NCBI RefSeq assembly: GCF_016862635.1
Contig: NZ_BONI01000002.1
Coordinates: 186,001 to 250,000, forward strand
DNA length: 64,000 nt
From: Catellatospora coxensis
GTDB lineage: Bacteria > Actinomycetota > Actinomycetes > Mycobacteriales > Micromonosporaceae
Reading direction: 5' to 3'
This document shows, in pieces, positions 4,296 through 45,245 of this stretch. Below the pieces are notes generated by a model. The model worked only from the letters and a program-made list of their open reading frames with translations, did not search any database and was not told where the DNA came from. Each line of letters begins with the position of its first letter. Positions within the stretch are counted from its first letter, which is position 1. A program made the translations under genes and the position numbers.

Positions 4296-4491
4296 GCACG
4301 GATCTCACCGGCCGGCGGCGGGTTCCCGGAAGGCGTCGGCGCTGGCGGCGTACTGCCATGGCAGGGATCAGCCACCAGCGTTCCTCGTCCTTGAACCGAT
4401 CCAGAAAGCGTGTCGATCGGTTTGCGTCCGGTGGAAGCGAGAGAATCCACCTTGGTATTCGGTGGCGACTGTCTTGCAACCGGGAGCGCAG

Positions 4492-5325
4492 ATGGCCGAC
4501 TGGGACGGCGCCGGTTACGCGCACATCAGCGGGCTGCAGCGCGCCATGGCGACGGCCTCGCTGGAGTCCGTCGCGGTCACGGGCACCGAGCAGGTGCTCG
4601 ACGTCGGCTGCGGCGACGGGTATGTGACCCGGCTGATCGCGTCCCGGGTGCCCGACGGAGCCGTGCTCGGCGTGGATCCGTCACCCCGGATGATCGAGGT
4701 GGCGCGCACCGCCGACGACCAGCTGGCCAACGTGTCGTTCGAGGTCGGCGACGTCGTCACCATGACGTTCGGGCCCGACTTCGACCTCGTCGTCTCGTTC
4801 AACGCGCTGCACTGGGTGGCCGAGCAGGAGACCGCCTACCGCAACATCGCGGCGGCGCTCAAACCCACCGGGCGGGTGCTGGTGCAGTTCGTCTGCCAGG
4901 GTCCCCGGCGCAGTGTCGAACGCGTCGCGATGGACACGGCGCACGATCCGCGCTGGGCGCACGCGTTCGACGGCTTCACGCAGCCGTACGTGCACATCGA
5001 GCCCGACGCACTGTCCGCGATCGCGGGACGTGCGGGCCTGGAGGTCGTACAGCGGTCGGTCGTCGACCGCGAATGGGACTTCGGCTCGCGTGAGCAGTTC
5101 GCGCAGTGGTGCACGGTCGGGTTCGCGGACTGGACCTCACGGCTGCCGGCCGCGGACGTCCCCGCGTTCGTCGACGCCGTCGTCGACGGATACCAGACGG
5201 TCACCGGTGAACCGGGGGTGTTCCGGTTCCTGCAGTTGCGGGCCGAGCTGCGGCCGCGACAGTCGCGGCCCGTTTCGCCCGGCGGGCTTCCCGGACCGTG
5301 TCAGGCGTCTGAACGCCAGGGCTGA
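4492..5325 (+). CDS. Class I SAM-dependent methyltransferase
   Basis: This encodes 277 aa from the ATG at 4492; the frame is open further upstream, but the methyltransferase homology begins here. Motif I is VLDVGCGDGY near residue 38, followed by an acidic residue after the second strand (GVDPS) that would bind the ribose of SAM. Motif II-like FDLVVSFNALHW matches the trans-aconitate methyltransferase and UbiE-like group. The C-terminal half (DREWDFGSREQFAQW) resembles the substrate cap of that group. It is cytoplasmic, divergent from the subtilase fusion, and 40 bases from the following hypothetical gene. Substrate unknown. Confidence 0.88.
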   Translation: MADWDGAGYAHISGLQRAMATASLESVAVTGTEQVLDVGCGDGYVTRLIASRVPDGAVLGVDPSPRMIEVARTADDQLANVSFEVGDVVTMTFGPDFDLVVSFNALHWVAEQETAYRNIAAALKPTGRVLVQFVCQGPRRSVERVAMDTAHDPRWAHAFDGFTQPYVHIEPDALSAIAGRAGLEVVQRSVVDREWDFGSREQFAQWCTVGFADWTSRLPAADVPAFVDAVVDGYQTVTGEPGVFRFLQLRAELRPRQSRPVSPGGLPGPCQASERQG

Positions 5326-22384: not shown

Positions 22385-22717
22385 TCAATTGCCGCGCGGG
22401 GCATACATGATCACGGCGACGCCGACCAGGCAGATCGCGGCACCTATGATGTCGTAGCGGTCGGGCCGGAACCTGTCCACGACCATGCCCCACGCCAGTG
22501 ACCCGGCGACGAACACACCGCCGTAGGCGGCCAGGATGCGACCGAAGTTCGCGTCGGGCTGGAAGGTGGCGACAAACCCGTATGCCCCGAGGGCGATGAC
22601 GCCGGCGGCGATCCACCACAGGCCGCGGTGCTCGCGCCAGCCCTGCCAGACCAGCCACGCCCCGCCGATCTCCAGGAGGGCGGCCAGGGCGAACAGGATG
22701 ACAGAGCGGGCGATCAT
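22385..22717 (-). CDS. YnfA/UPF0060 family membrane protein
   Basis: This encodes 110 aa from the ATG at 22717 (MIARSV); a second ATG lies one codon upstream. It shows the four-helix pattern and conserved blocks of the family: [46 protein letters not shown] and [15 protein letters not shown]. YnfA proteins resemble small multidrug-resistance transporters and sit in the inner membrane. It is often found in metal-resistance neighbourhoods, as here, 20 bases after the mercury-type operon. Transported substrate unproven. Confidence 0.9.
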
Positions 22718-22739
22718 CATGCGCGCAGCCTAGCCATCC

Positions 22740-23006
22740 TCATGACGGCCGAGAGCAGGAGCAGTCGCCACCGGAGCAGCCGCCGACATGCGCGGCGCGC
22801 CGCCGGGTTGACCGCCACCATGCCAGCGCGGTCAGCGCGGCGAGCACGACGGCGATACCGGGCATGATCTGCCCGAGTGCGGCCCAGCCTGCGCCGCCGA
22901 CGATGCCTGCTGCGATGAGTAGCGGAATGGCGCAGCACAGCGCGCAAGCGAGGCCGGTGAGTCCGCCGAGTCCGCCGGGAAGGAGCGCGCGCAGTTTGTT
23001 GATCAT
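22740..23006 (-). CDS. Small Cys-rich membrane protein, mercury-transport-like
   Basis: This 88-aa protein has two hydrophobic helices. The first contains CALCCAIP, resembling the paired Cys in the first helix of MerT/MerF/MerC-type mercury carriers, and the tail is GGCSGGDCSCS. The start overlaps the MerR-type gene by 4 bases (ATGA). Binding and moving Hg(II) or a similar soft metal across the membrane is the likely role. No mercuric reductase is present, so the metal may differ. Confidence 0.7.
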   Translation of the reverse strand: MINKLRALLPGGLGGLTGLACALCCAIPLLIAAGIVGGAGWAALGQIMPGIAVVLAALTALAWWRSTRRRAAHVGGCSGGDCSCSRPS

Positions 23007-23437
23007 TTGTTGTCTCCGTGGTCGAGTCCGGCGAGCGGGATCGGGCAGCAGTCGGTGGTGGCGCAGGTTGTCAGGTCGTCGCAGCCGGCGTCGAGGGCGG
23101 TGCGCAGGCTTTCGGCGATCGTCTGCAGGTCGGCGATCTTCGTCTCGATCTCGGCGAGCTTGGTCGCGGCGCGTCGTTGCAGACTGGTGTCGCGGCGGCG
23201 GCCGTGGCGGTGGGTGCCGAGGTCGACGAGTTCGGCGACCTCGTCGAGGGTGAAGCCGAGTCGTTGCGCCGTCTTGATGACTCTGAGCAGGGTCAGGGCC
23301 TCGGCGGGGTAGAGGCGGTGTCCGCCGGGGCTGCGGGTCGGTTCGGCCAGCAGACCGCGGCGTTCGTAGTAGCGCAGAGTTTGCAGGTTCACTCCCGCCG
23401 CCTGGGCTAGTTCCCCGCTACGCAGGCCGGGGTTCAC
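23003..23437 (-). CDS. MerR-family metal-responsive regulator
   Basis: This encodes 144 aa from the GTG at 23437. The N-terminal winged helix has the family signature RSGELAQAAGVNLQTLRYYERRGLL, followed by the long dimerisation helix. The metal-binding region ends CDDLTTCATTDCCPIP, so several thiols are available, as in Hg(II), Pb(II) or Cu(I) sensors. It overlaps both neighbours by 4 bases and should be autoregulated from the divergent-type promoter at 23795-23825. Exact metal cannot be told. Confidence 0.88.
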   Translation of the reverse strand: MNPGLRSGELAQAAGVNLQTLRYYERRGLLAEPTRSPGGHRLYPAEALTLLRVIKTAQRLGFTLDEVAELVDLGTHRHGRRRDTSLQRRAATKLAEIETKIADLQTIAESLRTALDAGCDDLTTCATTDCCPIPLAGLDHGDNK

Positions 23438-23787
23438 GGTCGGCCATGCATGGTGTCGGCCCGGTCGGCCAGTGCGGCAAGGACGTCGGTGTGGGCGGGT
23501 GGAACCTCGACGTCGAGCGTGACGTGCCCGGGTGCGCCGGTGACGGTGATGGCGAAGGTGAAGAACGAGCAGCAGTCGCTTTCGCGGGCGGCGAGGTCGC
23601 GTACGGTCGGCTCCAGGTCGGGTCCGCCGGTGAGGGTGAGGCGCAGGTGCGTGGCGCTGATGCGTTCGGCGGCGCGGACGGCGGTCGTGAACAGGGCGTC
23701 GAACTCGGCGAGGCGTAGTGGCTGCTGCGCTGTCGGCAGGGTGCACGCCTGCGGCACCCAGGCCAGGCTGGGGGTCAGTTCGGTCAT
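23434..23787 (-). CDS. Conserved protein of a MerR operon, first gene
   Basis: This 117-aa soluble protein has a mid-protein ESDCCSFFTFAITV motif, with a Cys pair between helices, and a C-terminal alpha-helix. Proteins of this type occur directly upstream of MerR regulators in actinomycetes and may bind metal through the CC pair. It is translated from the ATG at 23787, almost immediately after the MerR-type promoter, so the message is leaderless or nearly so. No enzymatic motif seen. Confidence 0.7.
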   Translation of the reverse strand: MTELTPSLAWVPQACTLPTAQQPLRLAEFDALFTTAVRAAERISATHLRLTLTGGPDLEPTVRDLAARESDCCSFFTFAITVTGAPGHVTLDVEVPPAHTDVLAALADRADTMHGRP

Positions 23788-23916: not shown

Positions 23917-24519
23917 TCATCTTTCTGGCCGCTCGTCGTCGTAGCCGTGTGATGCACGGGCTCGGTACCTGCGGTTGACAGGCATCACGGCATTCCAGGG
24001 CCGGATGGACCGCGGTTGCACAGTGCGGGTGTGCTCGGCGGAGGGAGCGACGTCGCGCGTGGTTGCGCCTGTACGAGTGCCGATGACGCCGCCGAACTGA
24101 AGGCCGAGGTCGGCCGCGTGTTCGCGCAGCAGCTCGCGAACGTGCCGTGATGGCAGTGTGTCGGCCTGGGCCAGGTCGTGCGCCGCCCAGAGCGACTGCC
24201 TGGCCCGTGGTTCGACGGCAGGGTGATCTGGCTGGCGCGCCCACCGGCTCCAGCAAGCGAGGTAGGCGGCCAGCAGGCCGTGCTCGGCTTCGTGCAGCGG
24301 TTCGGTCGCTGCCACGATGTCGGTGGCTGTCAAGGTGGCATGTCTGAGATCCCCCGTGCGATGTGCAGGCGTATGGGTGGCCACGCTCAGGACCGGTGTA
24401 CCGCGCTTCGAGGCCGCCAGTTGCACCCGGGACCAGCTCGTACTCGGATGCAGTGGGATCGCGGCGGACACGCGGTCTTCCGGTCCGGCGTCCACGATCA
24501 GATAGTGCCTGGTTGTCAT
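23917..24519 (-). CDS. Hypothetical protein, third gene of the Cys-rich/M28 operon
   Basis: This 200-aa soluble protein starts at an ATG that overlaps the peptidase stop by 4 bases. It has a helical centre (LHEAEHGLLAAYLACWSRWARQPDHP, SLWAAHDLAQADTLPSRHVRELLREHAADLGLQFGGVIGTRTGATTRD) and a beta-like opening. I do not recognise the family. Coupling to the M28 peptidase and the Cys-rich peptide implies a common pathway. Confidence 0.65.
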   Translation of the reverse strand: MTTRHYLIVDAGPEDRVSAAIPLHPSTSWSRVQLAASKRGTPVLSVATHTPAHRTGDLRHATLTATDIVAATEPLHEAEHGLLAAYLACWSRWARQPDHPAVEPRARQSLWAAHDLAQADTLPSRHVRELLREHAADLGLQFGGVIGTRTGATTRDVAPSAEHTRTVQPRSIRPWNAVMPVNRRYRARASHGYDDERPER

Positions 24520-25757
24520 CGCTGGGAAGATTCGTGTCCGGCAACGTGGTGCTTCACGGTCGCCGTAAGCAGTCGGGTCGCAGCGAGCAGCGTGGCAGGC
24601 TGGACGCGATCGGGGGTTTCGGCGGGCGTCTGGTAGCCGGGCATGCCCATGCCGATCCCCACGGCGGCGAGGCCTGCGGCGGCGTAGCGGCGGTTGTCGG
24701 AGGGCATGGCTTGCCCGCGCAGCGGGACGCCGGTGTCGCGGCCGGCCCGGTCGAGTGCCGCGAGCAGCGCGTGTGCTGGTCCGGCGGCCTCGACGGCGGC
24801 GGCTTCGTGCAGAGCCGCTGCCCCGTCAAGGTTGATCACGATGGTGTCTTCGGGTACCTGCGGGGCGTGGTGGGCGGATCCGTGGGCGCCGGCTTCCTCT
24901 GCGTCGAGCAGGGCGACCGTCAGGGTGAAGGCGGTGTGGTCGGCGATGAGCTGGCGGGCGGTTTCGATCACGGCGGCCACGCCGGATGCGTTGTCGGCGG
25001 CTGCGGGGAATCGCTGTTCGGGATCGTCGCCGACGCCGTCGTAATGTGCGGTGAGCAGCACTTTGGGGCCTGATCTGCCGACGGTGGCGAAGGTGGCGTA
25101 GACGTTGACGGCTTCGGCGTCGACAGTCCGCAGCGGCGCGCTGGCGGTGATCTGGCCACGACTGGCCCGCATGCGGTGGTGCCAGTCGGTGTGTACGGCG
25201 AGCACGGGCAGCGGTCCGGTGGCTGGCCCGGCGATCATCTTGGGCATCCAGCCGTCGGCGTCGGTGCCGCGGGAGACGAGCAGCCCGAGTGCGCCGTGCT
25301 TGGCCGCGGCCTGGGCGAGGGTGAGGTCGTAGCCGTCGTCGAGCAGGATCCAGGCACCGCGTGGGTCGTCCTCAGGCCTGGTGATCGGTCCGGTCACGGG
25401 CTGCGGTAGGTCGGTGGTGGCGAGGTGCTCGCAGAAGTCGCGCCGGTGGATGAGTGCGTGGGTTCTGGTGGTGTCGGTGTAACGCAGGTGCGGGGTTGCG
25501 TGCAGTTCCCGGATGGAGCCTCGGACGGGGAACGGGTCAAGCGTGACGGTGGCTCCGGCTTGGCGCAGCTGTTGTGCGAGCCAAGCTGCTGCGGCATGGC
25601 CGCCGGGGGTGCCGGTGCGGCGGCCGGTGAATTCAGCGGCCGCCAGCCGGTTGACGATGGCGAGCATCCGGTTGAGGGCCGGGCTTTCGTCGCTCAGAAG
25701 CGCGGGGTCGGCTGGTGTGGCCGACCCCGCGTGTGGTGCCGTGGTCACTGGCAACAT
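24516..25757 (-). CDS. M28-family metallopeptidase, cytoplasmic and missing one zinc ligand
   Basis: This encodes 413 aa from the ATG at 25757. It shows the PA-like insert followed by the co-catalytic zinc core: HYDG in LLTAHYDGVG, AADNASG, and the Glu pair in LLDAEEAG, with NLDG later. The fifth ligand position, usually His in YHTPxDT, is Gln in GYQTPAETPD. It has no signal peptide, whereas most actinobacterial M28 aminopeptidases are secreted, so it probably works inside the cell. It overlaps the Cys-rich peptide gene by 13 bases and the next gene by 4. It may process that peptide or a conjugate; the altered ligand leaves activity open. Confidence 0.85.
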   Translation of the reverse strand: MLPVTTAPHAGSATPADPALLSDESPALNRMLAIVNRLAAAEFTGRRTGTPGGHAAAAWLAQQLRQAGATVTLDPFPVRGSIRELHATPHLRYTDTTRTHALIHRRDFCEHLATTDLPQPVTGPITRPEDDPRGAWILLDDGYDLTLAQAAAKHGALGLLVSRGTDADGWMPKMIAGPATGPLPVLAVHTDWHHRMRASRGQITASAPLRTVDAEAVNVYATFATVGRSGPKVLLTAHYDGVGDDPEQRFPAAADNASGVAAVIETARQLIADHTAFTLTVALLDAEEAGAHGSAHHAPQVPEDTIVINLDGAAALHEAAAVEAAGPAHALLAALDRAGRDTGVPLRGQAMPSDNRRYAAAGLAAVGIGMGMPGYQTPAETPDRVQPATLLAATRLLTATVKHHVAGHESSQR

Positions 25758-25975
25758 CCCGTGCCGGCGGCAACGGCTTCGGTCTTGGCTTGCTGGCCGC
25801 AGCAGCTGTTGGACGCGGTGGCCTCTGCGGTGGTGCCGCAGCACGGCTCTGCCGTTGCGGTCTGCTGCTCGGTGGTGCTGGGTGCGCTGCCACAGCAGCC
25901 GCCCTGCGCGGGCGGCGTGAACGCCTGTGCGGCGTCGCCGCTGAATCCGCCCGTTGCTGCGGTATTGGTGGTCAT
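25745..25975 (-). CDS. Small Cys-rich protein with CCG repeats
   Basis: This 76-aa protein has a plain N-terminus (MTTNTAATGGFSGDAAQAF) and then four Cys pairs spaced through a Thr/Ala/Gln-rich tail: GGCCGS, PCCGT, SCCGQ and GCCQ. The pattern resembles the CC-rich tail of the ArsO-like flavoprotein at 42492-43895. It could chelate arsenite or a soft metal, or be the precursor of a modified peptide trimmed by the M28 enzyme encoded next. It starts the three-gene operon and lies beside the ArsR gene and a motif shared with another arsenic promoter. Confidence 0.8.
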   Translation of the reverse strand: MTTNTAATGGFSGDAAQAFTPPAQGGCCGSAPSTTEQQTATAEPCCGTTAEATASNSCCGQQAKTEAVAAGTGCCQ

Positions 25976-26001
25976 GTCGAGCCCCTAACTGTCCGACTGC
26001 C

Positions 26002-26073
26002 TTGATAGATCTCTAATCAAGTTCATGCTTCCACTTGTTTCGAGATTCGTCAACCTAGACAGAAATCTAAACA
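26002..26073. promoter_or_regulatory. Operator region of the Cys-rich peptide operon
   Basis: TTGATAGATCTCTAA at 26002-26016 matches TTGACAGATCTCTAA at 42205-42219, upstream of the second arsenic operon, in 14 of 15 positions. A further TCTAAACA (26066-26073) also recurs there. The core is flanked by CTTGAT/ATCAAG inverted arms. Likely an ArsR-class binding site; the regulator is inferred. Confidence 0.6.
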
Positions 26074-26116: not shown

Positions 26117-26431
26117 TCAGATCGGGCAGCACGAGCGCAGGTGGTCCTGCAGTTCGGCCAGCGACGCGCTGATGCCGACGGGATCGGCGCGGTAGTAGAC
26201 GGCCTTGCCTTCACGCCGGGCCGCGAGCAGGCCGCCGTCGCGCAACTGGGCGAGCTGTTCGGAGGCGGTGGACTGCCCGATGCCCAACCTTGCCGCGACG
26301 TCGCCGACGCTGAGTTCGCCGCCGGCGGCGAACGCCATGAGGACCTGCTGTCGGCTTTCGCTGGCCAGCGCTTTGAGGAAGGCGCGTACGGCGGGACTGA
26401 ACTGCTGGGGCGCTTCGGTCACATCCACCAT
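26117..26431 (-). CDS. arsR: ArsR-family regulator with C-terminal Cys pair
   Basis: This encodes 104 aa from the ATG at 26431. The winged helix runs from FLKALASESRQQVL to GLLAARREGKAVYYR. There is no CVCDL motif in the recognition region; instead the chain ends LRSCCPI, an alternative As(III) or metal thiolate site used by other ArsR proteins. It is divergent from an ArsO-like gene, and the palindromes between them are its probable operator. Repression relieved by arsenite or another soft metal is expected. Confidence 0.88.
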   Translation of the reverse strand: MVDVTEAPQQFSPAVRAFLKALASESRQQVLMAFAAGGELSVGDVAARLGIGQSTASEQLAQLRDGGLLAARREGKAVYYRADPVGISASLAELQDHLRSCCPI

Positions 26432-26437
26432 TCCATC

Positions 26438-26465
26438 ATATCGCGATTTCGCGAAATGACGATAT
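26438..26465. promoter_or_regulatory. Nested palindromic operator between divergent arsR and flavoprotein genes
   Basis: ATTTCGCGAAAT (26446-26457) is a perfect 12-bp palindrome enclosed by ATATCG (26438-26443) and CGATAT (26460-26465). It fills the short gap between the divergent genes and resembles operators of ArsR/SmtB repressors. Confidence 0.75.
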
Positions 26466-26475
26466 GATCCGGCGC

Positions 26476-27546
26476 ATGACCCTCTTCGACGCGGTGGTGA
26501 TCGGCGGTGGCCAGTCCGGCCTTGCCGCAGCAGGCGCCCTGCAAGCACACGGCCGACACCCGCTCGTCCTGGAAGCCGGTGGCGCACCGACCGGTTCATG
26601 GGCGCGTTACTACGACAGCCTCACCCTGTTCTCCCCCGCCCGCCACAGCGCTCTACCCGGCATGCCGTTTCCCGGCGACCCCGACCGCTACCCGCACCGG
26701 GACGAGGTCGTGGCCTACCTCGCGGCCTACGCCGAACACCTCGGCGTGCCGATCCGCACGCGCAGCCGGGTCACCTCCGTCCAGCAGGCATCGGACGGCT
26801 TCACCGTCCACACCGACGCCGACACCCTGCACACCCCGATCATCGTCGCCGCCACCGGCGGATTCGGCCGGCCGCACCGCCCCGACCTGCCCGGCCTCGC
26901 CACGTACACCGGCACGGTGCTGCACGCCGCCGACTACCGCTCCCCCACCCCGTTCTCCGGCCAGCACGTGATCGTGGTGGGCGCCGGCAACTCCGCCGTG
27001 CAGATCGCCACCGAACTGGCCACAGTTGCGACGGTCACCCTGGCCACGCGGCAACCGGTGCGGTGGTTCCCCCAGCGTCCACTGGGCCGGGACCTGCACT
27101 GGTGGCTGAAGACCACCGGCCTGGACACCTCCCCGCTCGGGCGGCTGCTCGCAGGCGGCCACCGAGGCGCGCCGGTGCTCGACGACGGCCGCTACCGAGC
27201 CGCCGTGGCGGCGGGAGCGCCGCGCCACCGACTCATGTTCACCGGCCTTCACGGCAACACCGCCACCTGGACCGACGGCAGCCGCGAGGACGTCCACGCG
27301 ATCGTGCTGGCGACCGGCTACCGTCCCGACCTCGGCTACCTGCACGAGCTGGGGGCTCTGGACGCCGACGGACGGCCACGCCATCGTGGTGGTGTGTCGA
27401 TCACGCATCCCGGCCTGGGTTATGTCGGACTGGAACTGCAGCGCAGCTTCGCCTCCGCGACGCTTCGCGGCGTCGGTGCCGATGCCGCCCGGGTCGTGGC
27501 CCGGCTGACCGCGCGACGGACCAGCCAGGTGGAGCCGGCACGTTGA
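26476..27546 (+). CDS. ArsO-like flavin monooxygenase
   Basis: This encodes 356 aa from the ATG at 26476; an upstream ATG at 26464 overlaps the operator. It has two dinucleotide folds: VVIGGGQSGLAAAG at the N-terminus for FAD and VVGAGNSAVQIATEL in the middle for NADPH. It also has the FMO-like FSPARHSALPGMPF block and a final ATGYRPDLG. This is the pattern of flavoproteins found in ars operons, which are thought to act on arsenical compounds. Its stop overlaps the damaged carrier gene by 4 bases (TTGA). One of three such enzymes in the window. Confidence 0.88.
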   Translation: MTLFDAVVIGGGQSGLAAAGALQAHGRHPLVLEAGGAPTGSWARYYDSLTLFSPARHSALPGMPFPGDPDRYPHRDEVVAYLAAYAEHLGVPIRTRSRVTSVQQASDGFTVHTDADTLHTPIIVAATGGFGRPHRPDLPGLATYTGTVLHAADYRSPTPFSGQHVIVVGAGNSAVQIATELATVATVTLATRQPVRWFPQRPLGRDLHWWLKTTGLDTSPLGRLLAGGHRGAPVLDDGRYRAAVAAGAPRHRLMFTGLHGNTATWTDGSREDVHAIVLATGYRPDLGYLHELGALDADGRPRHRGGVSITHPGLGYVGLELQRSFASATLRGVGADAARVVARLTARRTSQVEPAR

Positions 27547-37902: not shown

Positions 37903-38583
37903 TCACCGCCTCCCGGCGGGCAGCGCTGGTGCCAGGCGGTCCACACGCGCAGCGAGGTCGCCGAACGCCGCTTCGAACGCCTCGTCGGTGTCGGACACCG
38001 CCGGATCGGGCACCGACCAGTGCAACCGTCGTGTCGGCTCGCGCAGCTGCTCGTGGGCGATGTCGCAGACGGCCACGACCAGGTCGTCGTCGCGCAGCAC
38101 GTCACGGACGTCGGCAGTGCCCGCCCCAGCCAAGTCCAGGCCGTGACGAGCAGCGGCGGCGATCGCCTTCGGATGTACACCCGTGGCGGGCATCGTTCCA
38201 GCCGACGCCGCAGGTATTGCGCTGCAGCGCGCCCACAGCGCCGCGGCCAGCTGCGAGCGGGCCGAGTTGTGGGTGCAGACGAACAGCACCCGCCGGGCCG
38301 GGCCTGGCGCAGCAGGGGTCAGCAAGTCGAGGGTGCCGCGGCGTAGCCGCAGGTAGGTGCGGCGCCGGTCGCCCTCGGATCGGACCCGGTCCACCAACCC
38401 GGCGCCGGACAGCACGTTGAGGTGGTGGGCCAGCAGGTTGGTGGTCATGTCGAGCTGGCGGCCGAGTTCGCCTGGTGAGGCGTCGCCGAGCAGCAGGGCG
38501 TCGACGATCGCCAGCCGTGCGGGTTCGCCGAGGGCGGCGTGCACGCGTGCTCGCCCCACCAGACTCATTGGCTCAGTACTCAT
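37903..38583 (-). CDS. ArsR-ArsC fusion protein
   Basis: This encodes 226 aa. Residues 1-90 form an ArsR-type winged helix (ALGEPARLAIVDALLLGDASPGELGRQL, TNLLAHHLNVLSGAGLV) and 95-226 a low-molecular-weight phosphatase/arsenate-reductase domain with the P-loop CTHNSARS (Cys-x5-Arg). A regulator joined to arsenate reductase is known in actinomycetes and couples sensing to reduction. A later Cys (AVCDIAHEQL) may take part in the thiol relay. Alternative start at residue 6. A palindrome covers the first codon. Confidence 0.9.
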   Translation of the reverse strand: MSTEPMSLVGRARVHAALGEPARLAIVDALLLGDASPGELGRQLDMTTNLLAHHLNVLSGAGLVDRVRSEGDRRRTYLRLRRGTLDLLTPAAPGPARRVLFVCTHNSARSQLAAALWARCSAIPAASAGTMPATGVHPKAIAAAARHGLDLAGAGTADVRDVLRDDDLVVAVCDIAHEQLREPTRRLHWSVPDPAVSDTDEAFEAAFGDLAARVDRLAPALPAGRR

Positions 38584-38593
38584 TGAGTCAATG
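38581..38593 (-). promoter_or_regulatory. Operator over the start codon of the ArsR-ArsC gene
   Basis: CATTGA-G-TCAATG is a near-perfect palindrome whose left arm contains the start codon complement. Binding here would block initiation of a leaderless or short-leader message. Confidence 0.6.
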
Positions 38594-38650
38594 ATCGCTG
38601 AGTGGTCTTCGAGATGTCAATCCCTCTGCCCGGGGGCCTGACATGCAGAT

Positions 38651-38690
38651 GGGGTGCTGCGCCTGCCGATGTCGGCAGGCGCAGCACCCC
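38651..38690 (-). terminator. Strong terminator at the end of the aqp-arsC operon
   Basis: A 19-bp perfect stem beginning GGGGTGCTGCGCC (38651-38669 with 38672-38690) sits 16 bases past the arsC stop. Confidence 0.85.
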
Positions 38691-38706
38691 AGTTAGAACA
38701 AAGGGC

Positions 38707-39123
38707 TCAGGTCAGCGGCTGGGGCACCAGATCTTCGACCAGCGCCTGCACCCGGTCGCGGATCTCGTCGCGGATCGGGCGGACCGCGTCGATGCCCTGC
38801 CCGGCGGGGTCGTCGAGCTTCCAGTCCTCGTGGCGCTGTCCCGGGAAGTACGGGCAGACATCGCCGCAGCCCATGGTGATGACCACGCTGGACGCCTCGG
38901 ACGCCTCGGGGGTGAGGATCTTCGGGGTCTGGTCGGTGATGTCGATGCCGACCTCGGCCATGGCCTCGACGGCGACGGGGTTGATCCGGTCGGCGGGGGC
39001 GGAGCCGGCGGAGCGGACCTCGACGGCGTCACCGGCGAGGTGTCGCAGCCATCCGGCGGCCATCTGGGAGCGTCCGGCGTTGTGCACGCACACGAACAGA
39101 ACACTGGGCTTGGTATCGGTCAT
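38707..39123 (-). CDS. arsC: Arsenate reductase, low-molecular-weight phosphatase fold
   Basis: This encodes 138 aa. The P-loop is CVHNAGRSQMAAG and the late motif MGCGDVCPYFPG supplies a second Cys, the pattern of thioredoxin- or mycothiol/mycoredoxin-linked ArsC. It reduces arsenate to arsenite in the cytoplasm. The ATG overlaps the preceding gene by 4 bases; it is the last gene of the arsR-aqp-arsC-arsC operon. Confidence 0.95.
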   Translation of the reverse strand: MTDTKPSVLFVCVHNAGRSQMAAGWLRHLAGDAVEVRSAGSAPADRINPVAVEAMAEVGIDITDQTPKILTPEASEASSVVITMGCGDVCPYFPGQRHEDWKLDDPAGQGIDAVRPIRDEIRDRVQALVEDLVPQPLT

Positions 39124-39758
39124 CGCTGCTCTCCTGCAGTCAGTTCGTCGATCAGTTGTCTCACTCGGACGTCGATGTCGTCGCGGATGGCGCGCACCGT
39201 CGCCAGGCTGGCGCCGGCGGGGTCGGGAAGGTCCCAGTCCAGGTAGCGCTTACCTGGCAGGACCGGGCAGGCGTCACCACAGCCCATCGTCACGATCACG
39301 TCTGCGGCTTGCAGGGCGCCATCGGTCAGCGGCTTGGGGAACGCCCCGTCGGCCGGAATCCCAGCCTCGGCCAGGACCGCCACAACGTGCGGGTCAAGGA
39401 CGCTGGCCGGATGCGATCCAGCGCTGGCCACTGCGACCCGGCCCGCGCCGTGACGTTCGGCCAGCGCTGCCGCCAGCTGGGACCGGCCGGCGTTGTAGGC
39501 ACACATGAACAGCACCCGTGGCACCGTCACCACAGGCGGCGCGCCTGCGGCCTCGGCCATGGCCTCCAGCCGCTGGGCCGCGGCGTGACCGGCCAGTGGG
39601 AGCAGGTGGGTACGGACCCGGGCGGTGCGTTCGAGTTCCAGGTAGGCCTCGAAGACGCAGCGCTCGACGGTCTGCGGGCTGAACACGCCGTGGAAACGCT
39701 CGACCAGGCGTGCGGACTCCCGCGCCAGGGCCGCATCCACGGATGCGTTGGTGCTCAC
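39120..39758 (-). CDS. Arsenate reductase with N-terminal three-helix dimerisation domain
   Basis: This encodes 212 aa from the GTG at 39758. The first ~75 residues (ESARLVERFHGVFSPQTVERCVFEAYLELERTARV) are the helical bundle added to some actinobacterial ArsC proteins. The reductase domain has CAYNAGRSQLAAA and MGCGDACPVLPGKRYLDW. It overlaps both neighbours by 4 bases. Together with the second ArsC it gives two reductases in one transcript. Confidence 0.92.
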   Translation of the reverse strand: MSTNASVDAALARESARLVERFHGVFSPQTVERCVFEAYLELERTARVRTHLLPLAGHAAAQRLEAMAEAAGAPPVVTVPRVLFMCAYNAGRSQLAAALAERHGAGRVAVASAGSHPASVLDPHVVAVLAEAGIPADGAFPKPLTDGALQAADVIVTMGCGDACPVLPGKRYLDWDLPDPAGASLATVRAIRDDIDVRVRQLIDELTAGEQR

Positions 39759-40507
39759 GGGGCTGCTCCGACGGCCTCGGGCTCGATCGCTTGCTGCGAC
39801 GAGGGCCGAGTCACCGTTTCCGCGGAACCGGTCGCCTTCGGGTAGAGCGCGGCGACCAGGGCAACGCCGATCAGCGCGCCGATGATCTGGGCCCCGATGA
39901 ACGCCGGGACGGAGGTGGGCGTGATTCCGGCGAAGGTGTCGGTGAACGCACGGCCGATGGTCACGGCGGGGTTGGCGAAGCTGGTCGAGCTGGTGAACCA
40001 GTACGCCGCCCCGATGTACGCCGCGACAGCGGGCGCCGCCAGCGCCGCGCGGCCACTGCGGACGAGGGCGAAGATGAGCAGCAGCAGGCCGGCGGTCGCG
40101 ACGATCTCGCCCAGCCACAGTTGCGGCTTGTCGCGGGCGGTCGCCGACATGCCTTGTGCGACCCCGAACATCGCGTTCGCGAGCACTGATCCGGCGATCG
40201 CGCCGAGCGTCTGGGCGGCGATGTAGGGGGCGATGTCCTTGGCGGACAGGCCTGTGGGGTCGTGGCGGTCGGACCACCATGCGGCGACGGTGACGACGGG
40301 GTTGAAGTGTGCGCCGGACACCGGGCCGAGGATCAGGACCAGCACGGCGAGGGCGAACACGGTGGCGGTGGAGTTCTCCAGCAACTGCAGGCCGACGTCG
40401 TCTGGTGACAACCGGGTGGCCATGATGCCGGAGCCGACGACCGTGGTGACCAGCAGCATGGTGCCGAGCAGTTCGGCGAGCAGGCGGCGGGGCAGGGTGG
40501 CGGGCAT
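39755..40507 (-). CDS. Aquaglyceroporin (MIP family) of an ars operon
   Basis: This encodes 250 aa from the ATG at 40507; GTG at 40513 is an alternative. Six helices and the two NPA-type half-helices FNPVVTV and FANPAVTI are present, the first NPA altered to NPV. Aquaporins in ars operons (AqpS type) let arsenite flow out after ArsC has reduced arsenate, replacing an active pump. No intact pump accompanies it here. It shares overlaps with arsR and arsC. Confidence 0.92.
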   Translation of the reverse strand: MPATLPRRLLAELLGTMLLVTTVVGSGIMATRLSPDDVGLQLLENSTATVFALAVLVLILGPVSGAHFNPVVTVAAWWSDRHDPTGLSAKDIAPYIAAQTLGAIAGSVLANAMFGVAQGMSATARDKPQLWLGEIVATAGLLLLIFALVRSGRAALAAPAVAAYIGAAYWFTSSTSFANPAVTIGRAFTDTFAGITPTSVPAFIGAQIIGALIGVALVAALYPKATGSAETVTRPSSQQAIEPEAVGAAP

Positions 40508-40824
40508 CAGCACTCCCGGCGGTTGTCGGAGGTCGCGCGCGCTCGTGCGGCCAGGGCGGTGAGGTGTGCCGCCGCGGCGTCGAGGGCGTCGGCGTTGAGG
40601 TGGTAGTAGGTGTAGCGGCCGTACGGTTCGGCCTTCACCAGGCCTGCGTGACGCAGTGCGCGCAGGTGGTTGGACACGTTCGGCTGCGACAGGCCGAGGT
40701 CCTCGACGAGGTGGCAGGTGCAGGCGGGGCCTGCGGCGAGGGCGTCGACGATGGCGGCGCGGGCGGGGTCGGCCAGCAGCCGTACCACCTCGGCCGGGGC
40801 ATCACGAGAAACTGATATCACCAC
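40507..40824 (-). CDS. arsR: ArsR-family regulator, first gene of the aqp-arsC operon
   Basis: This encodes 105 aa from a GTG at 40824 (a second GTG follows). The winged helix carries ACTCHLVEDLGLSQPNVSNHLRAL: the Cys-x-Cys at its start is an arsenite site. The stop shares bases with the aquaporin start. It should repress the four-gene operon. Confidence 0.93.
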   Translation of the reverse strand: MVISVSRDAPAEVVRLLADPARAAIVDALAAGPACTCHLVEDLGLSQPNVSNHLRALRHAGLVKAEPYGRYTYYHLNADALDAAAAHLTALAARARATSDNRREC

Positions 40825-40914
40825 GCGGTAATCAAACAGTCCGGCTGGTCAGTGCCGCAACTTCGTGATCATGAACATTGGGTGACGTGGCCGTGCACGG
40901 CGTGCGGCAACGTC

Positions 40915-41268
40915 TCAGGCCGTGGGGGCGATGTCCAGGACGGCGGACAGGGAGGCCATGCGTGGGCGGTTGGCCCGGTACCAGACCCAGGTGCCACGGC
41001 GGTCTGACTCGACGAGGCCTGCTTCGCGCAGCACCTTCAGGTGGTGCGAGATCGTGGGCCCGGTCAGGTCGAAGGCGGGGGTCAGGTCGCAGACGCAGGC
41101 CTCTCCCCCGTCGGCGGAGGCGATCATCGACAGCAGCTGCAGGCGCACTGGGTCGCCGAGGGCCTTGAACGCAAGCGCGAGATCGGCGGCGGCCTCGGCC
41201 GGCACGGTGGCGGTGGCCAGGGGTGCGCAGCACACCTCGGGTTCGAGCACGGTCAGCTGCTTCGACAT
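40915..41268 (-). CDS. arsR: ArsR-family regulator with CVCDL
   Basis: This encodes 117 aa, with a Cys pair near the N-terminus (PEVCCAPLA) plus the classic ACVCDLTPAF arsenite motif and recognition helix TGPTISHHLKVLREAGLV. It is divergent from another arsR; the intergenic palindromes are candidate operators for both. It has no partner gene of its own downstream before the next operon. Confidence 0.92.
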   Translation of the reverse strand: MSKQLTVLEPEVCCAPLATATVPAEAAADLALAFKALGDPVRLQLLSMIASADGGEACVCDLTPAFDLTGPTISHHLKVLREAGLVESDRRGTWVWYRANRPRMASLSAVLDIAPTA

Positions 41269-41334
41269 GCCCCTAGGTTGACAGGTTTCGAAGCAGCTGG
41301 CAACGCCGGTTGTCCTAGCTCACTGTTACCGACT

Positions 41335-41363
41335 ATCATCGTTTATCGGCGATAGGCGATGAT
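41335..41363. promoter_or_regulatory. Double palindromic operator between divergent arsR genes
   Basis: ATCATCG (41335-41341) and CGATGAT (41357-41363) form a 7-bp inverted repeat around a second palindrome, TATCG-G-CGATA (41344-41354). It overlaps the start of the plus-strand gene. Confidence 0.7.
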
Positions 41364-41706
41364 GTTGGAGGATGGGGTGGAAGAGCTGCTCGACCGCGAG
41401 GTCGCCCAGCGGTACGCGTCGTGGTTCCGGGCCTTGGCCGACCCGACCCGGGTACAGATCGCGGAACTGCTGGCCCGCAAGCGCGAGCCGATGAGCGTCG
41501 GGCAGATCACCGCGGCGGTCGGCATGGCGCAGTCGACGATCTCCCAGCATTTGAAGATCCTCGCGGAGGTGCGCTTCGTACTGGTCGAGGCATCAGGCAA
41601 CGCGAACCTGTACCGGATCAACGAGAACTGCCTGAGCTGCTTCCCGACCGCCGCCGACGTCGTGATGGGCCGTCCGGTCGCCGCGCCGGGAGACACGCCG
41701 TGCTGA
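41359..41706 (+). CDS. arsR: ArsR-family regulator with C-terminal Cys
   Basis: This encodes 115 aa. The winged helix runs ALADPTRVQIAELLARKREPMSVGQITAAVGMAQSTISQHLKIL. Instead of CVCDL it has NENCLSC and a final Cys, another thiolate arrangement. It overlaps the acetyltransferase gene by 7 bases, so the pair is coupled. Probably senses a trivalent arsenical different from inorganic As(III). Confidence 0.9.
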   Translation: MMLEDGVEELLDREVAQRYASWFRALADPTRVQIAELLARKREPMSVGQITAAVGMAQSTISQHLKILAEVRFVLVEASGNANLYRINENCLSCFPTAADVVMGRPVAAPGDTPC

Positions 41707-42203
41707 GCATCCGACCGATGGCCGAGACCGACGCCGAGGCGGTGCTGGCGATCTACCAGTACGGGATCGACACCGGCAACGCGACCTTCGATACCACCGC
41801 CCCCACCTGGTCCGCGTTCGACGCCGGCCGGATGCCCGAACACCGCCTCGTCGCCTGCGACCACATCAGGCAGGTACTCGGCTGGGTCGCCGCGAGCCGG
41901 GTGTCGAGCCGCCCCGCGTACGCGGGCGTGGTCGAGCACAGCGTGTACATCCATCCCGAGGCGCGCGGCCGCGGCGTGGGCCTGGCGCTCATGCGGGCGC
42001 TGATCGCGTCCACCGAGGCGGCCGGGATCTGGACGATCCAGTCCGGGATCTTCCCCGAGAACACCGCCAGCCTGGCCCTGCACCGGGCGGTCGGATTCCG
42101 GGAGGTGGGCGTTCGCGAGCGGCCCGGGTGCCTGCATGGGCAGTGGCGGGACGTGGTCGCGGTCGAGCGGCGCAGCACGGTGGCAGGCACCACAGCAGGC
42201 TGA
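41700..42203 (+). CDS. GNAT acetyltransferase, ArsN type
   Basis: This encodes 167 aa from the GTG at 41700. The acetyl-CoA site is HPEARGRGVGLALMRAL, and the phosphinothricin-acetyltransferase-like blocks (MAETDAEAVLAIYQYGIDTGNATFDTTAP and VEHSVYIHPEARG) are complete. Enzymes of this type N-acetylate phosphinothricin and the arsenic antibiotic arsinothricin. Coupling to an arsR makes the arsenical the likely substrate (ArsN); phosphinothricin is the alternative. Confidence 0.85.
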   Translation: MLSIRPMAETDAEAVLAIYQYGIDTGNATFDTTAPTWSAFDAGRMPEHRLVACDHIRQVLGWVAASRVSSRPAYAGVVEHSVYIHPEARGRGVGLALMRALIASTEAAGIWTIQSGIFPENTASLALHRAVGFREVGVRERPGCLHGQWRDVVAVERRSTVAGTTAG

Positions 42204-42204
42204 G

Positions 42205-42260
42205 TTGACAGATCTCTAAGTAGGCGGCACTCTAAACACGTCGCTTAGAGAAACTTCTAA
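42205..42260 (+). promoter_or_regulatory. Operator region of the second arsenic operon
   Basis: It contains TTGACAGATCTCTAA (42205-42219), shared with the 26002-26016 site, then TCTAAACA (42231-42238) and the perfect inverted repeat TTAGA-N6-TCTAA (42245-42260). Likely ArsR binding sites in front of the 55-aa gene and the flavoprotein. Confidence 0.65.
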
Positions 42261-42276
42261 ACAAGGAGCCGCAGCC

Positions 42277-42444
42277 ATGATCGCCCTGATCCGCCGGATC
42301 GCCGCCGCCCGGACCGCTCACGTCGTGCAGACCACCTCGTTCTGTGAGGGCTGCACCGAGCCGGTGTGCACCGCCGCGTGCCGCGCCGAGGCCGCCCGCA
42401 CCCGCGGCTACGAGCGCGTCGCCACCGCCGGCATCCGCTTCTGA
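42277..42444 (+). CDS. 55-aa Cys-containing protein upstream of the ArsO-like gene
   Basis: This short gene starts with ATG after AAGGAG at ideal spacing and ends in TGA at 42442-42444. The product is basic, with a middle SFCEGCTEPVCTAACR that carries four Cys, followed by a helical tail GYERVATAGIRF. Similar tiny proteins precede ArsO-type flavoproteins in other actinomycetes as far as I recall. A role as metal or arsenite carrier for the enzyme is reasonable inference. The operator region and the 47-base gap to the next gene indicate co-transcription. Confidence 0.75.
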   Translation: MIALIRRIAAARTAHVVQTTSFCEGCTEPVCTAACRAEAARTRGYERVATAGIRF

Positions 42445-42491
42445 CCCAGACCGCCCTCACCGACCTGAGCCCGAGCTAGAGGAGAACGACG

Positions 42492-43895
42492 ATGAGCACG
42501 CAGGACAACCACCCGATCGTGGTGGTCGGCGCCGGCCCGGTCGGCCTCGCCGCCGCCGCCCACCTGGCCGAGCGCGGCCTGGACTTCCTGGTCCTGGAGG
42601 CCGGCACCGGCCCCGCCGCGGCGATGGCGAGCTGGGGGCATGTGCGGGTGTTCAGCCCGTGGCGGTTCAACCTCGACCACGCGGCCCGCCGCCTGCTGGA
42701 GGCCGACGGCTGGATCGCACCCAACCTCGAGGACCTGCCCCTCGGCTCCCAGATCGTCACCGACTACCTCGAGCCGCTGACGAAGCTGCCTGCCCTGGCC
42801 GGCCGGGTCCGCTACGGCGCGAAGGTGGTGGCGATCAGCCGCGACGGCCTCGACCGGGTCCGCACGACCGGCCGTGACATCGCTCCGTTCCTGATCCGGC
42901 TCGCCGACGGCACAGAACTCACCGCCTCCGCCGTCGTCGACGCGTCCGGCACCTGGCCGACGCCCAACGTCCTGGGCGGCTCCGGCCTGCCTGCACACGG
43001 AGAGCCCGAGGCCGCGGCGTTCATCGAGACCGCACTGCCCGACGTGCTCGGCGCCGACCGCGAGCGGTTTGCCGGACGTCGCACCCTGGTCGTCGGCGCG
43101 GGCCACTCCGCCGCCAACACCCTGCTCGCCCTGGCACAGCTCGCGTCCGAAGTGCCGGGCACCACGGTGAGCTGGGCGATCCGCACCGGCGCGGCCACCC
43201 GCACCTACGGTGGCGGCGACGCCGACGCCCTGCCCGCCCGCGGCGCACTCGGCAGCCGGGTTCGCGCACTGGTCGAGTCCGGAGCGATCACCCTGCACTC
43301 CGGCTTCTCCGTACGCGCCGTCGCCATCGACGGGGGTCAGGTCACCGTGACGTCGCGCAGCGGCGCGAGCGTGACCGCGGACCGGATCGTGTCGGCCACC
43401 GGCTTCCGGCCCGACCACACGATCGCATCCGAGCTGCGACTGGACCTCGACCCGATCATGGGCTCGACCCGTGCCCTGGCACCGCTGATCGACCCCAACC
43501 AGCACTCCTGCGGCACCGTGCCGCCGCACGGCGTCGACGAGCTGACCCAGCCGGAGGCGAACTACTTCGCCGTCGGCGCGAAGTCCTACGGCCGCGCGCC
43601 CACGTTCCTCATGGCCACCGGCTACGAGCAGGTCCGCTCGGTGGTCGCCGCGCTCGCCGGAGACTGGGACGCCGCGCGCGACGTGCAGCTCGAGCTGCCT
43701 GAGACGGGCGTGTGTTCCTCGTCGGCGGCGCTGGGCGCCGACGACGAAGCATCGTGCTGCGGTACGCCGGAGCCGGCGGACGTCTCGGCCGCTCGCGGCC
43801 TGGCCACCGGAATCGCCGGTGGGCTGCTCACCCTGCCCGTGGTGCAGGCCGTCACGACCGAGGCCAAGACCAGCGGCGGATGCTGCGGCAGCTGA
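42492..43895 (+). CDS. ArsO-like flavoprotein with CCG tail
   Basis: This encodes 467 aa. The FAD motif is VVVGAGPVGLAAAAHL, the NADPH motif LVVGAGHSAANTLLAL, and SATGFRPDHTI closes the fold. The chain continues into a Cys-rich tail, ASCCGTPEPAD and SGGCCGS, not needed for oxidoreductase activity and resembling the 25745-25975 peptide. The tail may hold arsenite for the enzyme or pass it on. It follows the 55-aa gene and is followed closely by an MFS gene. Confidence 0.9.
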   Translation: MSTQDNHPIVVVGAGPVGLAAAAHLAERGLDFLVLEAGTGPAAAMASWGHVRVFSPWRFNLDHAARRLLEADGWIAPNLEDLPLGSQIVTDYLEPLTKLPALAGRVRYGAKVVAISRDGLDRVRTTGRDIAPFLIRLADGTELTASAVVDASGTWPTPNVLGGSGLPAHGEPEAAAFIETALPDVLGADRERFAGRRTLVVGAGHSAANTLLALAQLASEVPGTTVSWAIRTGAATRTYGGGDADALPARGALGSRVRALVESGAITLHSGFSVRAVAIDGGQVTVTSRSGASVTADRIVSATGFRPDHTIASELRLDLDPIMGSTRALAPLIDPNQHSCGTVPPHGVDELTQPEANYFAVGAKSYGRAPTFLMATGYEQVRSVVAALAGDWDAARDVQLELPETGVCSSSAALGADDEASCCGTPEPADVSAARGLATGIAGGLLTLPVVQAVTTEAKTSGGCCGS

Positions 43896-43896
43896 C

Positions 43897-45132
43897 GTGA
43901 CCGCCACCGCGCAACGTGCCGCCGCCCCCACACAGGGCGGCGGCACCCCCACGCATCCCGGCGCGCGGCGCATGATCGCGGTCCTCGCGATCACCCAGAC
44001 CGTCGGCTACGGGGTGCTGTTCTACACCTTCTCGGTCGTCCTGCACCCCATCGCCGCCACCCTGCGCGCGAGCACAGCAGCGATCACCGGCGCGTACACC
44101 CTCAGCGTCCTGGTCGCCGCAGCGGCCGCGATCCCCGTCGGCCGCTACCTCGACCGCCGACCCGGCCGCGGCCTCATGACCGCCGGGTCCGCCCTGGGCA
44201 CCCTCGCCGTCGTCGCCCTGTCACAGGCGAACGCGGTCTGGCAGGTCTACGCCGCCTTCGTCCTGATCGGGCTGGCCGGCGCGGCCGCGCTCTACGAGGC
44301 CGCGTTCACCGTCGTCGTCCACCAGCTCGGCGCGGCCCGCCGCGCCAGCGCCGTGCTCACCATCACCGTCGTCGCGGGATTCGCCAGCACCATCTTCATC
44401 CCGACCACCGGCTGGCTCACCGCCGAACACGGCTGGCGCACCGCGCTGCTGATCCTCGCCGTGCTGCACGGCGCGATCACCATCCCGGCCCACCTGCTGA
44501 CCATCCCCGGCACCGCGCCCGGCACAGCGATTTCGCCCGCCCCACACCATGACCGGCGCGCCAACCGCCGAGTTCTCCGCGACCGGGGGTTCTGGCTGCT
44601 GGTCATCGCGTTCGTCGCCCACGGCACCGCCGTGTCTGCCATCAGCGTTCACCTCGTCGGCTACCTCACCGCACTGGGGCACCCTGTCACGGTCGCGGCA
44701 GGAATCGCGGGAATGCTCGGTGCGCTGTCGGTCACCGGCCGCGTCGTCACGACTCGTCTTACCCGCCGGCGTCCGATCGCCGCCGTCACCGCCGCGGTGT
44801 TCGCCGTGCAGGCCGTCGCGGCTGCGCTGCTTCCCCTGGTCGGAGCGAACCGTGCGGCAGCGGTCGCGTGCGTGGCCGCTTTCGGGTTGGGTTTCGGTGT
44901 CGGCACCATCGCCCGGCCCGCCATCGTCGTCGACCGCTACGGCACCGCCAGCTATGGCTCGGTGTCGGGCACCCTGGCCGTCCCGATCACCGTCGCCAAA
45001 GCAGCAGCGCCCTTGGCCGCCGCGACCCTGGCTGGTACGCGTCTCATGGCGGCGGTGGCGGTGCTGTGCGTGGTGGGGGCAATCGCCCTCAGCCGTCAGG
45101 CAAACCGCCAGGCCTCGTCACCGAGCGGGTGA
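43897..45132 (+). CDS. MFS transporter of the arsenic operon
   Basis: This encodes 411 aa from the GTG at 43897, one base after the flavoprotein stop. About twelve helices, with the MFS loop 2-3 motif PVGRYLDRRPGRGLM, are visible. It belongs to the group of MFS proteins found next to ArsO-like flavoproteins and may export their product. Alternatively a general multidrug exporter. Confidence 0.85.
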   Translation: MTATAQRAAAPTQGGGTPTHPGARRMIAVLAITQTVGYGVLFYTFSVVLHPIAATLRASTAAITGAYTLSVLVAAAAAIPVGRYLDRRPGRGLMTAGSALGTLAVVALSQANAVWQVYAAFVLIGLAGAAALYEAAFTVVVHQLGAARRASAVLTITVVAGFASTIFIPTTGWLTAEHGWRTALLILAVLHGAITIPAHLLTIPGTAPGTAISPAPHHDRRANRRVLRDRGFWLLVIAFVAHGTAVSAISVHLVGYLTALGHPVTVAAGIAGMLGALSVTGRVVTTRLTRRRPIAAVTAAVFAVQAVAAALLPLVGANRAAAVACVAAFGLGFGVGTIARPAIVVDRYGTASYGSVSGTLAVPITVAKAAAPLAAATLAGTRLMAAVAVLCVVGAIALSRQANRQASSPSG

Positions 45133-45245
45133 CGCGGACCGGTTCAAGCATGGTCGCTGCAACGACTCCGGCGTTCGTGCACCGCTGCCCGCGCACGCCT
45201 TGGGACCGGCCCACCGAGCCTTTCCAGCGTGCCGGCAAGGACCGG

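Follow-up and report, generated by a model that had tools for sequence, protein, structure and literature searches.

The locus examined here raises the question of why a small cysteine-rich peptide should be encoded directly ahead of, and overlapping with, a peptidase. Within a 64,000-nucleotide (nt) stretch of the Catellatospora coxensis genome, the whole of which we call the window, the minus strand carries at 25745–25975 a gene for a 76-amino-acid (aa) peptide, termed the CCG peptide, with a GGF motif near its N-terminus and four Cys-Cys (CC) pairs. It is followed by a gene for an M28 peptidase with a PA-type insert, which spans 24516–25757 when read from an ATG at 25757 and may instead start from a GTG at 25748. 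Peptide and M28 together are a genuine, recurring, arsenic-associated two-gene pair. As to what the pair does, we lean on sequence evidence, and at a little under an even chance, towards an arsenic-induced thiol peptide that would bind trivalent arsenic and be processed by the co-made, aminopeptidase-type M28 enzyme.

A peptide gene and a peptidase gene that recur as a pair

The first-pass annotation of this DNA had described the peptide with its four Cys pairs, the M28 enzyme and a 200-aa open reading frame (ORF) as three overlapping genes, and the minus-strand ORFs bear this out. The M28 start overlaps the peptide gene by 13 nt (from the ATG) or by the 4 nt GTGA (from the GTG), the latter resembling the ATGA of many relatives, and the 200-aa ORF overlaps the end of the M28 gene by 4 nt. 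The grouping of all three genes into one unit holds in part, as the peptide/M28 pair recurs and the third gene, treated below, does not. A single scan of genome contigs with the window M28 protein gave 54 loci (L002 to L055) from Actinomycetota, Chloroflexota and one Thermoplasmata metagenome-assembled genome (MAG), this archaeal case being a lone 10.7-kb contig (L049) for which mis-binning is possible. A CC-pair peptide ORF lies directly upstream of the M28 relative in 52 of these 54; in L036 an intact M28 gene stands beside a peptide split between two frames, and in L055, where the match is limited to M28 residues 347–401, no such peptide was seen. Overlap of the M28 start with the peptide stop is possible in 46 of 53 pairs, with a gap of 19–30 nt in six and one pair unassignable.

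In the window peptide eight Cys form four CC pairs, at residues 27/28, 45/46, 58/59 and 74/75. Four pairs are likewise found in 47 of the 52 upstream relatives, with six in four and three in one, and GGF stands near the N-terminus in 51 (L010 has GRF). Across alignment A1, comprising the window peptide and 32 of the 52 relatives after omission of frame-broken rows and close kin of kept rows (33 sequences), no variation is seen at G9, F11 and six of the Cys, conservation of the third CC pair is 90% or more, and the linkers between the Cys columns differ in length and letters. The CCG peptide probably does not fold, its chain bearing between three and six vicinal Cys pairs, most often four. Control DNA, comprising 20 stretches and 250,755 bases, all from relatives of the window and one stretch only 3.7 kb long, held no stop-to-stop frame that is shorter than 250 aa and has three CCG motifs. 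In Pfam no peptide family is matched over cut-off, the sole match being Galaxin_repeat below it, and NCBIfam gives no match, so that neither collection places the window peptide in a metallothionein family. Two vicinal cysteines are able to bind arsenic, as stated in an excerpt of PMC4661853.

The assignment of the predicted M28 protein to the M28 fold stands: it scores 78.1 bits against PF04389 (gathering score 21.3; E 9.5e-22), its AlphaFold model has a mean pLDDT of 90.1, a PDB profile search ranks 2ek8 and 6hc6 first, and Foldseek returns the PA-domain aminopeptidases PaAP, AP-AM1 and BSAP, with transferrin receptor chains listed too. No signal peptide was seen by eye. M28 enzymes have five metal ligands (His, Asp, Glu, Asp, His), of which the window protein has four, the last His being replaced by Gln376 in GYQTPAE. 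The first-pass annotation was right about this replacement; taken as a peculiarity of the window protein it does not survive comparison, for Gln occupies position 376 in 46 and His in eight of the 54 rows with a residue there (56 rows in total, two with gaps). As Gln376 is shared across the clade, it characterises one branch and does not mark a broken copy. The His-type proteins are those of L045 and L047 to L053, that is, the Chloroflexota, archaeal-MAG and L053 MAG members, and a divergent second copy in genome G614 (L130) also has His. The prevalence of Gln at the last zinc ligand and the transferrin receptor chains among the Foldseek matches would fit an actinomycete-type (Gln376) M28 that serves as a non-catalytic peptide-binding chaperone or sensor, by analogy with the inactive M28 fold of that receptor. 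We consider this quite improbable, as the other ligands and the presumed base (H238, D255, E287, E288 and D311) are invariant across alignment A2, made from the window and 30 of the 54 loci with the same kinds of rows omitted as in A1, and His is kept in the eight rows and in the L130 copy.

Co-occurrence was counted in three samples of 61, 61 and 47 genomes, the counts including the centre genomes, which were picked for having the pair. Among the 61 relatives centred on G000 the peptide is found in eight and M28 in seven: both in six, the peptide only in two and a broken M28 only in one (G010, with M28 pieces and no peptide match). In the family of Nonomuraea antri (G460, L022) both genes occur in the same four of 61 genomes and neither in 57, and in the class of Tengunoibacter (G452, L047) both occur in the same five of 47 and neither in 42. 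Pooled, the samples have both genes in 15 genomes, the peptide alone in two and a broken M28 alone in one. Fisher tests, which cover the first two samples and leave out the centres, give p = 3.8e-6 for the G000 relatives (2.2e-5 if the broken M28 of G010 is counted) and p = 2.9e-5 for the G460 family. Two genomes, G663 and G665, have two copies each of peptide and M28. Furthermore, pairwise distances of peptide and M28 correlate with r = 0.79 over 29 loci and r = 0.50 over 22 actinomycete loci, values reached by none of 5000 permutations in either case; the correlation shows that the pair travels together, and shared descent alone gives such a correlation too. That the peptide occurs without M28 in two genomes, while an intact M28 in a genome without a peptide match was not seen across the three samples, suggests a leading role for the peptide, with M28 as its helper.

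The peptide model used in these searches is not fully sensitive, since among nine genomes it matched in six and missed the peptides of L045 (G455) and L049 (G453), which were read by eye, as well as the frame-broken peptide of L036 (G458). An Actinomycetota-wide scan gave at least one of 396 genomes (the centre genome only), an under-count because 14 candidates per genome were scored, and a Chloroflexota-wide scan gave one of 121, namely the centre genome. Peptide search of the source genome (9.35 Mb in 222 contigs) found a single copy. Elsewhere, L131 (G026:C1:842000-860000), by coordinates the same place as L027, holds a third peptide/M28 pair within one genome, with one ArsR-type match only in the surrounding 18 kb with the ars queries used. 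A plasmid origin of M28 was rejected, as tblastn against PLSDB gave one record, which at 11.85 Mb is evidently a chromosome.

Arsenic genes and an operator-like palindrome around the pair

At least one match to ArsR, ACR3, low-molecular-weight (LMW) ArsC, ArsO-like, ArsK-like major facilitator superfamily (MFS), ArsN1a or flavoprotein queries lies near 53 of 55 loci (the 54 loci plus a 16-kb slice of the window, with flanks of at most 6 kb) and near none of the 20 control stretches, and 48 of the 55 have a match besides ArsR. The arsenic setting proposed for the pair is thereby upheld, and the case that the first-pass annotation had named as refuting, in which homologues lacking any link to arsenic have another ligand in place of the His, did not turn up: the two loci without an ars match are L036 and L053, the latter of which has organoarsenic-type genes. 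The scan used fixed thresholds, with flavoprotein, MFS, ArsO and ArsC queries drawn from the loci themselves; leaving out flavoprotein and MFS, which were chosen as recurrent neighbours, the count is again 53 of 55, with 47 besides ArsR. By type, ArsR matches occur in 49 loci, flavoproteins in 43, ACR3, ArsC or ArsN1a in 40, MFS transporters in 37 and ArsN1a-type acetyltransferases in 26.

The ArsN1a count bears on a further explanation, in which the peptide is an arsenic sponge and M28, merely co-regulated, acts elsewhere, be it on an amide-bearing organoarsenical or on peptides damaged under arsenic stress. ArsN1a belongs to the arsinothricin resistance family and the nearest solved relatives of the M28 protein are aminopeptidases, both of which would suit such a role. 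We nevertheless hold it to be unlikely, given the near-perfect pairing and overlap of the two genes in two phyla and also in the two-copy genomes, and given that M28 keeps to the peptide whereas an ArsN1a match is present at only about half the loci.

The operons share, in addition, an operator-like palindrome, TTMGA-N6-TCTA, which in the window stands upstream of the peptide gene as TTAGA-N6-TCTA (26056–26070, minus strand). It was found by k-mer enrichment in the same 53 peptide upstream regions (52 loci plus the window) in which it was first counted, and is present in 31 of them, with at least two copies in 20, against a mean of 0.06 and a maximum of 2 of 53 in shuffles of blocks of two neighbouring bases, which do not preserve exact dinucleotide counts. 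In 11 of the 22 regions without it a small gene, related to a 55-aa CxxC protein of the window, lies between promoter and peptide, and the palindrome is found upstream of this gene in all 11 (in L005 also at the assumed start; shuffles 0.01). The total is thus 42 of 53 operons, or 42 of the 45 with an actinomycete-type M28, and the pair thereby combines a nearby ArsR with a shared operator-like site, as an ArsR operon should. Across the 64 kb of the window a pattern scan gives three matches at only two places, the one above and 42245–42260, with 0.03 expected; this second place and the 11 loci fall outside the set from which the pattern was derived.

The second place is upstream of a plus-strand flavoprotein operon, 16 kb from the peptide operon. 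This encodes the 55-aa protein, with a C-x2-C-x4-C-x3-C-R motif and no match in Pfam (42277–42444), an FAD/NAD(P) oxidoreductase with a C-terminal CCG...GCCGS tail (42492–43895), and an MFS transporter (43819–45132; PF07690, similarity from about 43912) like the MFS neighbours of peptide loci, 55% identical to that of L042, which is itself ArsK-like by NF033733 below cut-off. As the palindrome occurs at two places of the window and the members of the two operons are neighbours in other genomes, the peptide operon and the flavoprotein/MFS operon appear to form one regulon. A candidate regulator of both is an ArsR encoded at 40915–41268 on the minus strand, 66% identical to the type often adjoining the peptide elsewhere. 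Neighbouring flavoprotein ORFs of at least 380 aa contain CC within their last 60 residues in 37 of 38 cases, and in ten further loci from relatives (L075 to L084) CC tails are found in nine, L076 being without the motif used to find the tail.

Several observations adjoin these subjects. Proteins of about 50 aa with C-x2-C-x3/4-C-x3-C-R form a family found before the flavoprotein in the window and, in 11 of the 54 loci, immediately ahead of the CCG peptide. The flavoprotein operon belongs to a second arsenic cluster of the window (37903–46319) with an ArsR-ArsC fusion, two more ArsC-type genes, a major intrinsic protein (MIP) channel, three ArsR-type genes, an ArsN1-like acetyltransferase and an ArsO-like protein. 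In five of six Chloroflexota loci, where the actinomycete palindrome was not found, an extracytoplasmic function (ECF) sigma factor lies near the pair; that of L047 spans 4398–5027, with relatives in L045, L048, L050 and L051, and the C-terminus is Cys-rich in L045 and L047, where the ends were seen.

Around the peptide operon itself, a second palindrome, TTGATTAGAGATCTATCAA, lies on the minus strand between the first and the start codon (26002–26020); its TTGA..TCAA pattern, used in the first operator scan, is a weak signal, present in 6 of 53 upstream regions against a shuffle mean of 0.67 and maximum of 4. Upstream on the same strand is an ArsR-family regulator with CC near its C-terminus (26117–26431, the start being our choice; HTH_20, PF01022, NF033788), and divergent from it on the plus strand an ArsO-like flavin monooxygenase (26464–27546; NF040505, 254 bits, under the curated cut-off of 425). 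The third gene of the operon (23917–24519, minus strand) encodes the 200-aa protein, for which blastp (E <= 1e-3) gave no homologue in the 54 loci. Weak matches were found in eight of 60 other relatives; the six that were aligned are all FMN_red/flavodoxin-like, and three of these homologues put to Pfam all match FMN_red (PF03358). The remaining two are G023 and L071; the L071 match falls within a very long, peptide-synthetase-like ORF and was dismissed as due to chance. The window protein does not have the loop GSxRxxGNTE found in the relatives, and its FMN loop is unrecognisable; its model is of low confidence (pLDDT 60.5), and the best PDB match is 1rli. With no homologue in the 54 loci and weak FMN-reductase-like homologues elsewhere, the three-gene unit was rejected, and we treat the 200-aa protein as a degenerate flavodoxin-like local accessory. 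Downstream on the same strand (22385–23787) lie genes for a MerR-type regulator, a MerT-like small membrane protein (a weak match), YnfA and a 117-aa protein without a family, homologues of which occur near the pair in L006 and L007.

A proposed model and the evidence that weighs on it

We propose a model that builds on the parts of the pair, their coupling, their co-inheritance, the arsenic neighbourhood and the shared operator-like site described above. Of the two roles that the first-pass annotation had offered for the peptide, an arsenite-binding thiol peptide or the precursor of a modified peptide, the former is the one that we favour. Upon entry of arsenic, an ArsR repressor would leave the TTMGA-N6-TCTA operators, and the pair would be made together with the flavoprotein/MFS operon bearing the same operator. 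The peptide would then act as a flexible multi-dithiol trap for trivalent arsenic, and the co-translated M28 enzyme would trim or degrade it, releasing arsenic-bearing or free thiol fragments, which would likely pass next to the CCG-tailed flavoprotein and the ArsK-like exporter. Binding of the operator by ArsR, binding of arsenic by the peptide, its use as an M28 substrate, hand-off and export are steps that we infer. A wider version of the model, which we regard as doubtful, would make the system a bacterial, perhaps archaeal, genetically encoded counterpart of detoxification by phytochelatins, in which the ribosomally made CCG peptide is loaded with trivalent arsenic, M28 clips off thiol fragments that bear arsenic, the flavoprotein and ArsK-like exporter oxidise or expel them, and in organoarsenic clusters the pair supplies or protects arsenic-peptide synthesis.

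The organoarsenic clusters also give rise to a different explanation of the peptide. In L053 an EPSP (5-enolpyruvylshikimate-3-phosphate) synthase, an independent phosphoglycerate mutase (iPGM) and a class-I glutamine amidotransferase (GATase) adjoin the pair, L016 has an EPSP synthase match and an iPGM match at the locus edge, and L130 has a cluster of the L053 kind that also encodes an ABC transporter, a FemAB/GNAT-like protein, three ATP-grasp proteins and another short Cys-rich peptide. The clusters of L130 and L053 look like clusters for an arsenic-containing peptide. Here the CCG peptide could be a precursor or carrier in the manner of ribosomally synthesised and post-translationally modified peptides (RiPPs) or of LysW, with GGF as leader or docking segment, an arsenical or other group placed on the CCG repeats, and M28 releasing the product. 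The conserved N-terminal GGF segment, the repeated CCG cores and the dedicated peptidase would agree with this, as would the presence of the pair inside EPSP-synthase/iPGM/ATP-grasp clusters with a second Cys-rich peptide (L053, L130) or near EPSP-synthase/iPGM-like genes (L016). In Streptomyces the organoarsenical bisenarsan requires genes of this kind, bsnM (EPSP synthase) and bsnN (phosphoglycerate mutase), and formation of its C-As bond is their proposed role, according to the accessible part of PMC12159101. Yet no modifying enzyme was seen to recur beside the pair across the 54 loci, with flanks of at most 6 kb, the recurrent neighbours being ArsR, flavoproteins, MFS transporters, ACR3, ArsC and ArsN1a where a RiPP would have its modifying enzymes, none of eight L053 proteins searched matches the window at E <= 1e-4, and the peptide occurs without M28 in two genomes, so that we think a precursor or carrier role rather unlikely.

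As observed in these loci, the clusters extend over 2721–16973 in L130 (G614:C47) and 2024–13112 in L053, each with bsnM-/bsnN-like genes, GATase, CC-pair peptide, M28 and three ATP-grasps, and the second short Cys-rich peptide is about 34 aa long in both. L052 has a methyltransferase beside an ArsR, which we read as ArsM-like.

Several points weigh against the model of an arsenic-binding peptide processed by its M28 partner. Gln at position 376 could lower catalytic activity or remove it altogether. No palindrome was found at 11 of the 53 operons, namely L016, L027, L042 and the eight His-type loci, and within 6 kb of L036, whose peptide frame is broken, there is no ars gene. Not every ArsR-type or LMW-phosphatase-type match is specific to arsenic and, because CC motifs are common in metal-handling proteins, arsenic specificity rests on gene context. 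Furthermore, G012 and G036 have the peptide without M28, so that M28 may not be needed everywhere; both assemblies are fragmented, the G036 match is without the GGF part, and the gene after the peptide is MFS-like in G012 and flavoprotein-like in G036. Finally, six of the nine CC-tailed flavoproteins from the further loci come from genomes without a peptide match, and because CC tails occur without the peptide the flavoprotein link may be one of shared regulation only.

Relation to known systems

The M28 protein resembles the PA-domain M28 aminopeptidases (BSAP/YwaD, AP-AM1, PaAP) in its fold, its inserted PA-type domain and its ligand frame, and departs from them in sequence (17–19% identity), in having no signal peptide by eye, in the Gln ligand of the actinomycete type and in its association with a peptide gene and with arsenic loci. 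Soft metals are bound by metallothioneins and phytochelatins, thiol polymers that are small and Cys-rich, as the CCG peptide is. Whereas metallothioneins have Cys-x-Cys clusters, the peptide has CC pairs on long variable linkers, with no CxC in the window or in 50 of 52 relatives (the exceptions being L049 and L053), and a peptidase partner; unlike phytochelatins, it is ribosomal. The CCG tails of the linked oxidoreductase resemble the C-terminal Cys pair of another flavoprotein, the mercuric reductase MerA, a likeness of motif only. Like the bsn clusters, for which an extract of PMC12159101 is our source, L016, L053 and L130 have EPSP-synthase- and iPGM-like genes beside the pair; unlike them, L053 proteins matched only L016 and L100 (from the L053 genome) among the scanned loci and the window, L130 lying outside that scan. 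With ars operons the pair has in common its ArsR, ACR3, ArsC, ArsO-like, ArsK-like and ArsN1a neighbours, although the word 'peptidase' is absent from the available portions of two ars-cluster papers (PMC4435449, PMC6514093).

No description of the peptide/M28 pair was found in Pfam, NCBIfam or the openly available literature, subscription papers being mostly outside this coverage. What some soil bacteria carry here, beside their arsenic-resistance genes, seems to be a gene-encoded means of catching and processing arsenic that has not been described before. As the pair is small, overlapping and recurrent, it is directly testable. Bacterial arsenic defence is known mainly as reduction, methylation, oxidation and export of small arsenicals, and a thiol peptide with its own peptidase would, if true, add a peptide-based branch to it. 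The pair would also offer fresh candidates for arsenic-binding sequences, of use in sensing and clean-up, and would suggest a function for the recurrent CC-bearing proteins of actinomycete arsenic islands.

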